Positions 2,710 through 60,669 of a stretch of 64,000 nt of DNA are shown here, in pieces. The stretch covers positions 62,001 to 126,000 of the forward strand of contig CAMNXF010000004.1 in NCBI GenBank assembly GCA_946567425.1, read 5' to 3'. The DNA is from an uncultured Clostridia bacterium (GTDB taxonomy: Bacteria > Bacillota > Clostridia > Oscillospirales > Ruminococcaceae). The notes under the pieces are model-generated. The model made no database searches, was not told where the DNA came from, and worked only from the letters and a program-made list of their open reading frames with translations. Position numbers and translations under genes: made by a program. How positions within the stretch are numbered: position 1 is the first letter of the stretch; each line of letters starts with the position of its first letter.

Positions 2710-3387
2710 TTAAGCGAAATCGGAAATTTCCACAAAATAAATACTTGTGCTGTTCTTTGTGATATACCACACATATTTGTCGCAGAAGTCAAACTCATTC
2801 AGCCGCACCGCTTGCAGGTCTTCAAAACTCTCCAACCGTTCTATAAAACGCAGCATTGCAGGATACGACGGCTCCACCCACGCTATATATTCAGGGTTGT
2901 TGCCTTGGCGTTTTTTATAGCTGCGCAGCTCGTTGTACGAGCGGTCGTAAATTTCCCTCAATTCCCCGACAAGCTTATCCTTTGAGAGTCTTGTACACTT
3001 TTCCTTGGGATATTCAAACGAACATTCAAATTCAAAATCAAAATCCCCTCTCCTATAACACTCTGTTTCGTAATCGTCGCCGTCGATTTTCAGCAGCCAG
3101 CCTGCCAGAAATATCTTTTTCATCATTTCCGCAGTATCGGAACTGTGCGGAAACAAAAACTCCGCAAGCGTTATATGTATATTCCAAGCAAAATAGCTTG
3201 ACATATACAATAATTCGGAATTTCTCATATACTCGGTCCGCCACTTCCGCGCGTTCCTGAAAAGCCGCTCCCATTTTTCGGGATCGTTCCCGCCGTTCAG
3301 AATACCCTGTTTGCCGAGAAACTCTATTAACAGCTTATCAAGGTGATCGATAAAAAACTCCCGCTCCATGCATTCCAACCAATCCAT
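2710..3387 (-). CDS. Hypothetical protein (225 aa) within pyrimidine operon
   Basis: ORF codirectional with the pyr genes; start overlaps the stop of the preceding ORF (3387). Confidence 0.65.
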   Translation of the reverse strand: MDWLECMEREFFIDHLDKLLIEFLGKQGILNGGNDPEKWERLFRNARKWRTEYMRNSELLYMSSYFAWNIHITLAEFLFPHSSDTAEMMKKIFLAGWLLKIDGDDYETECYRRGDFDFEFECSFEYPKEKCTRLSKDKLVGELREIYDRSYNELRSYKKRQGNNPEYIAWVEPSYPAMLRFIERLESFEDLQAVRLNEFDFCDKYVWYITKNSTSIYFVEISDFA

Positions 3388-3770
3388 TATGCTTTACCCC
3401 TTGCTTTTTGCAGATCATAAAGCGTTTCATCAACAAAAATTCCGCGAAAATACGCGTCAATCGCGTCGTCAAGACGCTCAATATACTCATTGTGATTTTC
3501 CGGGAATTTTTTCAGCTTTGACACATCATTTTTATCAAAATGCCATATCATTTCTTTCAGTACCCGTTGATATACACATGTGATTTTCCGCGCCGTTTCA
3601 AAATCCCTGCCGCATTTACAAGCGTCCTGCGCCAGCGTTATCACACAATCGTAAAACTCCCAAAAACGCTTTTTGGAAAACCGTCCGCGCTCGTGCAAAG
3701 AGTAAACCAAGCTTTTTTCCAAACAATCGGAATTCTTAGACAAAACCGTCTGCGCTTCATTAACCGTCAT
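3387..3770 (-). CDS. Hypothetical protein (127 aa) within pyrimidine operon
   Basis: ORF between pyrF and the 225 aa ORF, translationally coupled to it. Confidence 0.65.
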   Translation of the reverse strand: MTVNEAQTVLSKNSDCLEKSLVYSLHERGRFSKKRFWEFYDCVITLAQDACKCGRDFETARKITCVYQRVLKEMIWHFDKNDVSKLKKFPENHNEYIERLDDAIDAYFRGIFVDETLYDLQKARGKA

Positions 3771-3775
3771 AAGCC

Positions 3776-4714
3776 TTAGCTCTTTGAGGTGGCGATTTTC
3801 CCAACAAATTCCATTATCTCGTCGCGCATACGGATCGCCTCACGGCGCGCCGCCTCGGCGAACTCTCTCTCATTGCACTTCTCTTTCTGATACGCGCACA
3901 TTATTCCGCGCGAGCTGTTCACGATACCGCCCAAGCCGTTTTTGTCAAACGCGGCGGCGATGTCCTTTGCGGTCGCGCCCTGTGCGCCGTAGCCCGGGAT
4001 AAGGAAGAACGTGTGCGGAAGTATCTCGCGCAGACGCTTTATCTGCTCGGGGTATGTCGCGCCCGTAACCGCGCCAACGCCGCTGTAACCGTACACTCCG
4101 GGCAGCTCCTTGCCCCATTCCTCGCACATATTGCCCATAAGCTCGTAGATCGGTGTACCGTCCACCTTTTTGTCCTGCAGCTCTCCGCTCGACGGATTGG
4201 AGGTCTTGACAAGCACGAAAATGCCCTTGTCATTCTCTTTGCAGACCTTAAGCAGCGGCTTTATGCCATCCGAGCCGAGATAGCCGTTGACGGTGAGCGC
4301 GTCACCTAGGAACGGCTCAAACTCCGCGCTGCCAACCTTGACCTTGCCGAGGTGCGCGGTCGCATAGGCTTCCATTGTCGTGCCGATGTCGTTGCGTTTG
4401 CCATCGGTAATAACGTACATTCCCTTTGAACGTGCGTACTCCTGCGTTTTATAGAGCGCCTTTACGCCGGCCGTGCCGTACATCTCGTAATACGCCGCCT
4501 GCGGCTTAACCGCGGGAACGATGTCGTACAGCGCGTCGATAAGTCCCTTGTTGAACTCGTAAAGCGCTTTTGCCGCGCCCTTGAGCGTTTCTCCGTTCTT
4601 CTCAAAACATTTCTTCTTGATATATTCGGGAACGTAGTCCAGCTTGGGGTCAAGCCCCGCTACGGTCGGGTTCTGGGTCTGTTCGATTTTCTCGATAAGT
4701 CTGTCAAGTGCCAT
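3776..4714 (-). CDS. pyrF: Orotidine 5'-phosphate decarboxylase
   Basis: MALDRLIEKIEQTQNPTVAGLDPKLDYVPEYI...ITDGKRNDIGTTMEAYA; long-form PyrF. Confidence 0.95.
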   Translation of the reverse strand: MALDRLIEKIEQTQNPTVAGLDPKLDYVPEYIKKKCFEKNGETLKGAAKALYEFNKGLIDALYDIVPAVKPQAAYYEMYGTAGVKALYKTQEYARSKGMYVITDGKRNDIGTTMEAYATAHLGKVKVGSAEFEPFLGDALTVNGYLGSDGIKPLLKVCKENDKGIFVLVKTSNPSSGELQDKKVDGTPIYELMGNMCEEWGKELPGVYGYSGVGAVTGATYPEQIKRLREILPHTFFLIPGYGAQGATAKDIAAAFDKNGLGGIVNSSRGIMCAYQKEKCNEREFAEAARREAIRMRDEIMEFVGKIATSKS

Positions 4715-4735: not shown

Positions 4736-5254
4736 TCAGCAATGCCCGCCGATGTTCAGCGCGGTCTTTTCAATTATATGCCCGTTCATTTTCTCCAACA
4801 GCTCGTTGAGGAAAAAGCCGTCCTTAACGTCGAGAGAGCAGTCGAGCGCGTAAACGGTCAATTTGTATACGTGATCCTTGTCGGGCGGCGTTGGTCCGAT
4901 GTAGCGCTTTGTGACGCGCTCGTCCTTTTCGCCGATAAACGGAGAAATGCGGCTGTTCGCGCCCTAAACCATACCAAGCGCGCCGTCTTGGCTTGCGTTC
5001 TCGGGGATCTCCGAAACGTTCGCGGGGATATTCGCCGCCGTCCAGTGTATCCACGCAAAACCGCACACGGGTATCGAGTCGAAGTCAACAAACACAACCG
5101 CAAGCGTCTCTGCGTTTTCGGGAACGTCCTCAACCGTTATCGGAAAAGAAACGACGGGCTTTCCGTTGATCTTCACGTCCGAATGCTTCGCGTATTTTTC
5201 GGGCAAGAACCCGTTTTCTTCGGGAATACTTATCTTCATATTACTTGTCTTCAT
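4736..5254 (-). pseudogene. YbhB/YbcL (PEBP/Raf-kinase-inhibitor-like) protein interrupted by one in-frame TAG at 4964-4966
   Basis: N-terminal ORF 4964..5254 ends ...ENASQDGALGMV*; same frame continues GANSRISPFIGEKDERVTKRYIGPTPPDKDHVYKLTVYALDCSLDVKDGFFLNELLEKMNGHIIEKTALNIGGHC* (TGA at 4736-4738), the conserved PEBP C-terminal half. Confidence 0.8.
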
Positions 5255-6512
5255 AAACTATCTTTCCGTCAACTATCGTCATTTTTACGCGCCCTTTGAG
5301 CTTCATTCCCTTAAAGCAGGTGTTGTGCGACTTGGAATGCAGCTTGTCGGGGTCGACTATCCATTCCTCGTTAATGTCGAAAACCGCTATGTCCGCGGGG
5401 TCGCCCTCACCTAGACTGCCGCCGGGGATACTCAAAATCTTGCGCGGATTTACGCACATCAGCTTGACGATACGCTTTAACGTTATCTTGCCCTTATGAT
5501 ACAGCGCCGTGAGCGTCGCCGCGAGCGACGTTTCCAGCCCGACAACTCCGTTCGGGGCTTTCTCGAAATCCGCTTTTTCCTCGGGAGCATGCGGCGCGTG
5601 ATCAGTAACGATACAGTCGATCGTTCCGTCGCAGACGCCCTCGGTTATCGCGGCAACGTCGTCAAGCGTTCGCAGCGGGGGATTCATGCGATAATCTGCG
5701 TCACGCAAACGGAGCTTTTCGTCAGTCAGCATAAAATAATGCGGAGCGGTCTCGCACGTCACCATAGCGCCGTATCTCGCGCCGAGCCTTACCAGCAGCA
5801 TACTTGTCGCCGTCGAAACGTGCGCGATGTGTATCGGCATTTCCAGATCGCCCGCCATGACTATCTCGCGTGCCGTGGAAATATCCTCAGAAATGCGATG
5901 CATTCCCGGAACGCCGAGTTCCTTTGAGATCTCGCCGCTGTTCATAATTCCGCCCGCGATAACGTTCGGATCCTCGCAGTGCGATATAACACGCAGTCCC
6001 GCGTAATGCGCCTTTACCATCGCCCTCGACAGAAGCCGTGCGTTGAGAACAGGCTTTCCGTCGTCGGAGACCGCCACGCAGCCCGCTTTTTTCAGCTCGG
6101 CATAATCGCAGAGCTCCTCGCCCTTTTGCCCCTTTGTAATGCAGCCGATAGGATAAACCTTGGCTTTTGCACCCCTTGCCTTGTCGAGAATATACTTTAC
6201 CGTTTCGGCGTTATCCACAACGGGAGAAGTGTTCGGCATACACGCGACTGCCGTAACGCCGCCCGCCGCAGCCGCCTCGCAGCCCGTGAGGATATCCTCC
6301 TTGTACGTCTGTCCCGGATCTCGGAAATGCACATGCATATCGCATATTCCCGGGATAACGGTCTTTCCCGTACAATCGACGGTCTTGTCGGCGGTCTCGG
6401 TGATATTCGGCTCGCATTTTACTATCCGTCCATTATCCACCAATATGTCTGCAATGCCCTCAAAATCGTTCGCTGCGTCAACTACATAGCCGTTTTTCAA
6501 TAAAAGCTCCAT
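5241..6512 (-). CDS. pyrC: Dihydroorotase
   Basis: VIPGICDMHVHFRDPGQTYKEDILTGCEAAAAGGVTAVACMPNTSP; HxH metal motif; 423 aa. Confidence 0.95.
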   Translation of the reverse strand: MELLLKNGYVVDAANDFEGIADILVDNGRIVKCEPNITETADKTVDCTGKTVIPGICDMHVHFRDPGQTYKEDILTGCEAAAAGGVTAVACMPNTSPVVDNAETVKYILDKARGAKAKVYPIGCITKGQKGEELCDYAELKKAGCVAVSDDGKPVLNARLLSRAMVKAHYAGLRVISHCEDPNVIAGGIMNSGEISKELGVPGMHRISEDISTAREIVMAGDLEMPIHIAHVSTATSMLLVRLGARYGAMVTCETAPHYFMLTDEKLRLRDADYRMNPPLRTLDDVAAITEGVCDGTIDCIVTDHAPHAPEEKADFEKAPNGVVGLETSLAATLTALYHKGKITLKRIVKLMCVNPRKILSIPGGSLGEGDPADIAVFDINEEWIVDPDKLHSKSHNTCFKGMKLKGRVKMTIVDGKIVYEDK

Positions 6513-6560: not shown

Positions 6561-7094
6561 TCAGCCGACAATGACCACCTTATCGCAGCCGTCCAGCTCT
6601 TTCACCATGACCTTGACCTTTTCATCCCGCGACGTCGGGAGATTTTTCCCGATGTAGTCCGCGCGTATCGGCAGCTCTCTGTGTCCGCGGTCGATAAGCG
6701 CCGCAAGCTGTACAAGCGTCGGACGCCCGCGCGCGAGCAGACCGTCTATCGCCGCACGTGCCGTCCGCCCTGTGAAGATCACATCGTCGATTATTACCAC
6801 ACGCTTTCCGGTAATGTCAAAATCTATCCTGCTTGTGTCCTCCGCCGCTCCACGTCTGCCGTCATCGCGGTACGGCGTAATGTCGAGCGTTCCCAGCGGT
6901 ATTTCGCGCCCCTCGTTGTCGGCGATCTTATCGGCTATTCTCTGCGCCAGCACCGCCCCCCGCGAGAACAGTCCGACCAGACAAAGCTCCTCTATGCCTT
7001 TATTGCGCTCAATTATCTCGAACGATATGCGCGTTATCGCCCTTGCGACCGCGTTCTCATCCAGTATCTCCGCCTTGATTGTGCTCCCGTCCAC
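6561..7094 (-). CDS. pyrR: Bifunctional PyrR regulator/uracil phosphoribosyltransferase
   Basis: RVVIIDDVIFTGRTARAAIDGLL PRPP-binding motif; GTG start at 7094; heads the pyr operon. Confidence 0.95.
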   Translation of the reverse strand: MDGSTIKAEILDENAVARAITRISFEIIERNKGIEELCLVGLFSRGAVLAQRIADKIADNEGREIPLGTLDITPYRDDGRRGAAEDTSRIDFDITGKRVVIIDDVIFTGRTARAAIDGLLARGRPTLVQLAALIDRGHRELPIRADYIGKNLPTSRDEKVKVMVKELDGCDKVVIVG

Positions 7095-50453: not shown

Positions 50454-52976
50454 TTAACCCAGAACTACCTCAACGGTATGCTCGCCGCCGTCAAAAGCGG
50501 GAATAACGTTTCCGTCAACGGGCTTGCCGTCCACTGTCATGGACTTAACGCCTGCGCATACGTGGTTCGGATTGGACACGCTTACGTTGTAGGTCGCGCC
50601 GCGGAATTGACGCGAGATCTTGAAGCCGTCCCACTCGTGCGGAATGGACGGGTCGATCTTTAAGCCGTCGTACTGCGGCTTAACGCCGAGGATATACTGC
50701 GAGATCGCGACGAAATTCCAAGCCGCCGTACCCGTAAGCCACGAGTTCTTAGCCTCGCCGTGACGCTTGCCGTCCTTACCCGCGATCATCTGCGCGTAAA
50801 CGTACGGCTCGGTACGGTGCAGATCGCTCATCTCCTCGCGGAAAGCGGGAGCGATTTTGCTGTAATACTCGAACGCCTTGTCGCCATGACCTACGGCAGC
50901 CTCAGCGCAGATAATCCACGCGTTGTTGTGGCAGAACACACCCGCGTTCTCCTTGTAGCCTCCCGGGTATGTGGAAATCTCGCCGTACTCGATCTTGTAG
51001 GTCGTGAACGCGGGATTGTTCAGCACCAGACCGTGCTTGCTGTTGAGGTACTTGTCAACGCTCTCAAGTGTCTTGATATCGCAGCCCTTGTCCTTGCCAA
51101 GCCCCGCGAGAACGCACCAACCCTGCGGCTCAATGAATATCTTGCCCTCCTCGCACTCATGAGAGCCGACCTTGTTTCCGTTGTGGTCGTAAGCGCGGAG
51201 GAACCACTCGCCATCGTAGCCTTTTTCAACGGTAGCCTTGCGCATTTTCTCGATTTCCGCCTCGGCGCGCTTTGCCTCAGCTTCGTCGCCCTTAAGACGA
51301 CACATAGCCGCGTACTCGGGCGCGATAAAGCAGAACATACCTGCGATCATTACCGATTCCGCGTTCTGCGAATAGAACGGCGGTTCGGTGAACATTTCCT
51401 TATTGTTGTAGGTCTGGAAGCTCTCGCCGGGCTTGTCAGAGAAGCACGAGAGGTTCAGACAGTCGTTCCAGTCCGCGCGTCCCGAAAGCGGCAGCCCGTG
51501 CGGTCCGATCTTCGTGCAGACGTGATTAAACGCGCGCTTGCAGTGGTCGAGCATGGTATCCGCAAGCTCCGTTTTGTTCTCGTAGGGTACTTTCTCGTCG
51601 AGAATGGAAACGTCGCCCGTCTCCTTGACATACTGCGCGACCGCCAAAATCATCCACAGCGGATCGTCATTGAAGTTTGAGCCGAGCTCGTGGTTGCCCA
51701 TTTTCGTAAGCGGCTGATACTGGTGATAAGCGCCGCCGTCCTCGAGCATTGTCGCCGCAAGGTCGATAAGACGCTCACGCGCTCTCTCGGGTATCTGGTG
51801 CACGAAGCCGAGCAAGTCCTGATTGCTGTCGCGGAAGCCCATTCCTCTGCCGATACCGCTCTCAAAGTAAGACGCGGAGCGCGACATATTGAACGTAACC
51901 ATGCACTGATACTGGTTCCAGATGTTGACCATACGGTTGACTTTCTCGTCGGGAGAGCTTACCGTATACTGCGTGAGCAGCTTGTCCCAGTAGTTCTTCA
52001 GGCTCTCGAACAGTTTGTCCGCCTTTTCGGGAGTATTGCAGAGGTCGATCATCTCAAGCGCCTTTTTCTTGTTGATAACGTTCTTGAGCTCCTTTTTGCC
52101 GCCAACGCCGTCAACGGTATACGAAACAATAATGCCGTCGTAATTGCCGCTCTTGTCAAATTTCTCGTCGGTGGGCATTTCAACATAACCGAGGCAGAAC
52201 ACCAACTCCTTACTCTCGCCCGGAGCGAGCTCCAGCTCGATATAATGCGAAGCGACAGGCGACCAGCCCTCCGCGACGGAGTTGTGCGGCTTGCCCTCAA
52301 ATACCGCGTCGGGGCGCTCAAAGCCGTTGTACAGCCCGAGAAAGCTCTCGCGGTCAGTGTCGAAACCCTGTACAGGAACGTTTACGGTGTAGAACGCGAA
52401 ATGATCGCGGCGCTCCTTGTACTCGGTTTTGTGGTAAATGGTTGAGCCGACAATCTCCACTTCGCCCGTATTGAAGTTTCTCTGAAAATTTGTGGTATCG
52501 TCGTTCGCGTCCCACAGACACCACTCCAAGAAACTTGTCAGTTTAAGTGACTTCTTGTCGGAGCTTTCGTTGGTGATAGTGACCTTCTGAACCTCGCCGT
52601 TGAAGTCCTGCGGCACAAAAAACTTAACCGAAGCCTTAACGCCGTTCTTTTTGCCCGTGATTATCGTATAGCCGAGACCATGACGGCACTCGTACTCATC
52701 GAGCTCGGTTTTTACGGGAGACCAGCCGGGATTCCAGACGGTATCGCCGTCTTTAAGATAGAAGTATCTGCCTCCCATATCAACGGGAACATTGTTATAG
52801 CGGTAGCGTGTAATTCTGCGCAGGCGCGCGTCCTTGTAGAAACTGTATCCGCCCGCCGTGTTTGAGATGAGCGAGAAGAAGCCCTGTGTTCCGAGGTAGT
52901 TTATCCACGGATAGGGTGTGCGCGGAGACGTGATGACGTACTCCTTTGCGCTGTCGTCAAAATGACCAAATTTCAT
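50454..52976 (-). CDS. GH94 cellobiose phosphorylase
   Basis: [88 protein letters not shown]; closely resembles characterised clostridial cellobiose phosphorylases. Confidence 0.93.
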
Positions 52977-59658: not shown

Positions 59659-60669
59659 CTACGAGATATACCCCGAATTCCAGCCCCTCGGAATACACAG
59701 CTTGCTGAAATAGTCCACCGCGTATTCGTCGGTCATGCCGCTGATGAAGTCGCCGACCGCGGTCTCAAGCCCGTCTCTTTCGGCAAGCTCCTTGTAGAGC
59801 TGCGGCATTTCGTCCTTGTTCTTGAAAAAATAGTTATAGAGATACTCGACGATATGTCCCGCCTTGTCCTTTTCGGCGATCGTCTTTTCCGCTCTGTAAA
59901 CGCGCTCGAACATAAAGTTTCTGAGCTCCCCGAACGCGCTTTCTGTGGTTTCATCAAACAGAATTTTCTCGCCGCTGTTCTCGACAAGCGAGCGCACAAG
60001 GCACGTTATCCTCGCGGATTTCGTCGCCCCAAGCGTTTTCACGGGGAACTCGGGAAGATCGCTCTGCTTGATGACACCGCCGCGTATCGCGTCCTCGATA
60101 TCGTGATTTACATACGCGATCTTGTCGCAAAACCGCACCACCATGCCCTCGCGCGTTACGGGGGGAGCGGACGAGCCTCGGTGCGCGACAATGCCGTCCA
60201 CCACCTCGAACGTGAGGTTCAGCCCCTTGCCGTCCTTTTCAATTACCTCGACGACGCGCTTGCTTTGGAGATTGTGCGCGAAGCCGTTTGGGAGCAGTTT
60301 GTTCAGCACGCGCTCGCCGTCGTGACCGAACGGTGTGTGCCCGAGGTCGTGACCGAGCGCGATAGCCTCCGTCAGATCCTCGTTCAAGCCGAGCGCGCAC
60401 GAGACCGTCCGCGCTATCTGGCTCACCTCAAGCGTGTGCGTTAGCCGCGTGCGATAGTGGTCACTGTGCGGTATCAAAAACACCTGCGTCTTGTGCTTCA
60501 GTCGGCGAAAGGAGTTACAGTGGATAATGCGGTCGCGGTCGCGCTGAAAATCCGTCCGAAAATCGCACGGCTTCTCATATACCTTGCGTCCGCGGCTGTC
60601 CTCCGACCTGCACGCGTACTCGCTTAAAGTGACCCTTTCGTTCTCTATAATGCGTTCACGCGGCAGCAC
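59659..60669 (-). CDS. dgt: dGTPase-family HD phosphohydrolase
   Basis: RDRIIHCNSFRRLKHKTQVFLIPHSDHYRTRLTHTLEVSQIARTV; ALGHDLGHTPFGHDGE. Confidence 0.93.
   Translation of the reverse strand: MLPRERIIENERVTLSEYACRSEDSRGRKVYEKPCDFRTDFQRDRDRIIHCNSFRRLKHKTQVFLIPHSDHYRTRLTHTLEVSQIARTVSCALGLNEDLTEAIALGHDLGHTPFGHDGERVLNKLLPNGFAHNLQSKRVVEVIEKDGKGLNLTFEVVDGIVAHRGSSAPPVTREGMVVRFCDKIAYVNHDIEDAIRGGVIKQSDLPEFPVKTLGATKSARITCLVRSLVENSGEKILFDETTESAFGELRNFMFERVYRAEKTIAEKDKAGHIVEYLYNYFFKNKDEMPQLYKELAERDGLETAVGDFISGMTDEYAVDYFSKLCIPRGWNSGYIS

Follow-up and report, generated by a model that had tools for sequence, protein, structure and literature searches.

The PEBP gene of the pyr operon in the window (the whole stretch of 64,000 nucleotides that was analysed) carries a single in-frame TAG at codon 92 and is most likely, with a probability that we put at roughly 0.7, a young nonsense pseudogene, which may be fixed in the population or still segregate there. 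A recent C-to-T transition would have turned the conserved CAG of Gln92 into UAG, at which RF1 would terminate, presumably with efficiency, to leave a 91-residue and probably non-functional fragment without the C-terminal part of the domain, provided that the base in the assembly is real. The stop is present in the window and absent from the relatives, UAG serves as an ordinary stop in this uncultured Clostridia bacterium, and the gene is missing from most congeners; a recent nonsense mutation, one of the options named in a preliminary description of this DNA, fits all the data. For re-initiation past the TAG, the next 30 codons offer no ATG, GTG, or TTG. The features concerned are collected in Table 1.

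Table 1 Features of the PEBP gene and its neighbours in the window
Feature	Position	Strand	Remark
pyrF (orotidine 5'-phosphate decarboxylase)	3776..4714	minus	downstream of PEBP, intact
PEBP gene, YbhB/YbcL family	4736..5239	minus	single in-frame TAG; read-through 167 aa, as written 91 aa
codon 97 CGC (Arg), window-private	4949..4951	minus	Cys (TGC/TGT) in close relatives
in-frame TAG, codon 92	4964..4966	minus	CAG or CAA (Gln) in relatives
pyrC (dihydroorotase)	5241..6512	minus	immediately upstream; stop 1 base ahead of PEBP ATG
pyrR-like phosphoribosyltransferase-domain gene	6561..7094	minus	upstream of pyrC

Two candidate starts are found for the PEBP gene, at 5254 (ATG AAG ACA AGT AAT ATG) and at 5239, the latter being aligned with the start in the relatives and used here for the numbering of codon 92. 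From the ATG at 5239, the frame runs through 91 codons to the TAG (4966-4964) and through a further 75 codons to a TGA (4738-4736), directly behind which stands a TAA; scanned from start to TGA, it contains, apart from the TAG, no further stop and no frameshift, as had been described initially for the UAG and the remainder of the frame. Pfam PF01161 (PBP domain) matches across the frame with 104.4 bits and one internal TAG, and with the TAG read as Q the scores are 107 bits for PF01161 (cut-off 24) and 138 bits for NCBIfam TIGR00481 (cut-off 57.75), both collections assigning the read-through protein to YbhB/YbcL. As written, the frame across the whole domain is interrupted by the TAG at codon 92 of 167. 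The coding signal is similar on both sides (0.34 bits/codon past the TAG versus 0.39 ahead of it), suggesting that the tail was coding until recently.

Gln occupies position 92 in 31 homologues out of the 32 that were aligned to the window, with L022 as the sole exception, so that the UAG does sit at a conserved Gln. The nearest homologues come from congeneric genomes deposited publicly as MAGs of uncultured Clostridia/Oscillospiraceae; they are L003 (89% identity to the window PEBP, codon 92 CAA), L004 (87%, CAG), and L021 (85%, CAG), intact orthologues with a sense codon at the site, as is looked for beside a nonsense pseudogene. One C-to-T transition thus accounts for the lesion, and the proposed change from CAG to TAG is borne out by the CAG of L004 and L021, with which codons 90-96 of the window are identical but for this one change and share the flanking codons (GTT _ GGC GCG AAC AGC). 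The stop is private to the window, every relative compared being without it. Of the motif LVQGxNSW, from which the conserved residue had been recognized, the Q holds, but the close relatives mostly read MVQG(A/S)NSC.

The placement within the pyr operon likewise stands, the gene order being pyrR-like, pyrC, PEBP, pyrF, two unnamed ORFs, and carA. Judged from its distribution, the PEBP gene between pyrC and pyrF is an accessory one: an intact close homologue (at least 62% identity) occurs in 6 of the 36 congeners searched, exceeding 80% identity in 3 of these, one more congener has a fragmentary match at a contig end, and the majority of the remaining congeners have pyrF directly behind pyrC with no PEBP between. 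The same genome contains a second PEBP, intact and more distant, on contig C7. Because the gene is missing in most congeners and this second PEBP exists, its loss would probably be tolerated by the organism. The presence or absence of an accessory PEBP between pyrC and pyrF across congeners is itself a modest note on genomic context. The interval (L111-L132, L003-L013) is variable: it is empty in most genomes, and otherwise holds PEBP alone or PEBP flanked on one side by several hundred additional bases. Farther along, between pyrF and carA, the two minus-strand ORFs (window 2710-3387 and 3387-3770) have no Pfam or NCBIfam match; relatives of the 127-aa ORF of this region occupy the corresponding place in L004, L005, and L013, as a tandem pair in L005.

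Apart from the TAG, the PEBP gene has the appearance of a gene long kept by purifying selection, with pairwise dN/dS values of 0.04-0.13 past the stop. These low values, together with the intact coding signal, point to a mutation that is young or has not become fixed, and since the gene appears otherwise to be under purifying selection, the inactivation, if real, would be very recent. The changes private to the window show a nonsynonymous-to-synonymous ratio of 5:9 past the TAG versus 3:14 ahead of it, and Cys97Arg lies five codons past the TAG; this higher nonsynonymous share and Cys97Arg are suggestive of relaxed constraint, in numbers too small for it to be claimed or tested.

A gene conserved but for the TAG would look the same if the organism's own copy were intact and the T were an assembly or consensus error, or a minority-strain base, in this draft and probably metagenome-assembled genome, an explanation that we consider unlikely, though it carries appreciable weight. 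It is in keeping with a lesion of one base only, in a sequence that is conserved and gives a coding signal on both sides, and with a draft of 40 contigs, ~92% complete, whose nearest relatives are MAGs. However, the contig is long (199.5 kb), no second TAG-interrupted conserved gene was met in the compared sample, and Cys97Arg is an independent private change nearby.

The same appearance would also be given by functional read-through, in which a near-cognate tRNA-Gln or a suppressor tRNA decodes the UAG at this site to yield some full-length protein. Insertion of Gln would bring back the conserved residue, and conservation extends into the tail; nevertheless, the RNA fold downstream of the TAG is ordinary (z = -0.73), and the stop is missing in every relative, which argues that no conserved read-through element exists. 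The search with RF00005 gave 36 tRNA hits, the well-scoring ones of which were typed with ARAGORN; none of the 36 has a CUA anticodon, in a set that is incomplete (e.g., Trp and Tyr tRNAs are missing) and may therefore have missed one, from a genome ~92% complete. Three weak hits read by eye are two truncated tRNA-Thr(CGU) and one degenerate tRNA without CUA. PylS gave no match above the cut-off, only sub-cut-off hits (21 bits versus 178), and the same profile gave hits in 13 of 14 control genomes, one of them above the cut-off. With neither a CUA tRNA in this incomplete set nor a PylS above the cut-off, the check advised in the preliminary description revealed no carrier for suppression, and we regard read-through at this site as very improbable, and low-level programmed or suppressor-tRNA read-through of the single UAG giving a functional full-length PEBP as more improbable still.

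Among the tRNA hits, contig C19 has three tandem copies of tRNA-Thr(CGU), ~184 bases apart (G000:C19:48096-48536, L093:8097-8537), of which copies 1 and 2 break off after the anticodon arm, keeping just the 5' part, and copy 3 is complete, as if the repeated unit had duplicated part of the tRNA gene. An isolated tRNA-like sequence on contig C5 (G000:C5:70225-70299, L092:926-1000; 40.6 bits, no ARAGORN call) combines good acceptor and T arms with a weak D stem and an anticodon loop that is enlarged (UUUUACUCAU); it is probably a decayed tRNA.

In a 364-kb sample of the genome, TAG terminates 16 of the 204 non-overlapping ORFs that are 200 aa or longer, and a further stop follows it at a median distance of 6 codons. 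At the ends of orthologous genes, TAG stands in place of TAA twice and is kept once, and TGA stands in place of TAG once; the dGTP triphosphohydrolase gene (window 59659-60669) ends in TAG, with a profile match reaching to within two positions of the profile end. RF1 is matched with 506 bits and has the RVPETESQG (PxT) and GAGGQ motifs, and ~11,200 aligned residues of conserved genes contain no in-frame TAG except that of PEBP. Other in-frame stop candidates were rejected: neither one upstream of a gene start nor one at the sample edge, in a frame of doubtful coding status, resembles a gene interrupted by a nonsense mutation, the stops at window 50454-52976 were put down to a shadow frame over a real gene, and a larger list consisted mostly of antisense shadow ORFs. 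Genuine genes ending in UAG, which had been named as the observation that would speak against recoding, thus exist both among the long ORFs and at the exchanged orthologous stops. A reassignment of UAG to Gln throughout the genome, for which the Gln position of the TAG and its rank as the rarest stop (4-10% of ORFs by length cut) could be adduced, is therefore contradicted by UAG standing at the very ends of orthologous genes at which relatives have TAA, the few codons from terminal TAG to the next stop, the intact RF1, and the lack of a CUA tRNA among the hits, and its likelihood is close to nil. The 2021 Codetta paper (PMC8629427) states that every bacterial stop reassignment known at the time concerns UGA, and its caution that a pseudogene stop created by a single transition can be mistaken for recoding fits the PEBP gene of the window.

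Beyond annotation the case matters little, the nonsense pseudogene favoured here being an ordinary broken gene of an already-known kind. It illustrates clearly how a single transition in a Gln codon can pass for recoding, against which RF1, the stop exchange at orthologous ends, and the tRNA anticodons together speak firmly. UAG-to-Gln codes occur in some phages and eukaryotes, and the window PEBP resembles them in having UAG at a Gln position but differs in that UAG does terminate genes in this genome, with an intact RF1. With the YbhB/YbcL PEBP family (PF01161, TIGR00481), the gene shares a nearly full-length, above-cut-off domain match when the TAG is taken as Gln, and the conserved DSIPVCGFAWIHW, GP-PPD-H-Y, and YALD blocks, whereas the TAG at a nearly invariant Gln, with 91 residues before the stop, sets it apart. 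Finally, from the single-nonsense pseudogenes of bacterial accessory genes it shows no notable difference, sharing with them one transition in an otherwise intact frame, the lack of the gene in most congeners, and a distant paralogue elsewhere.
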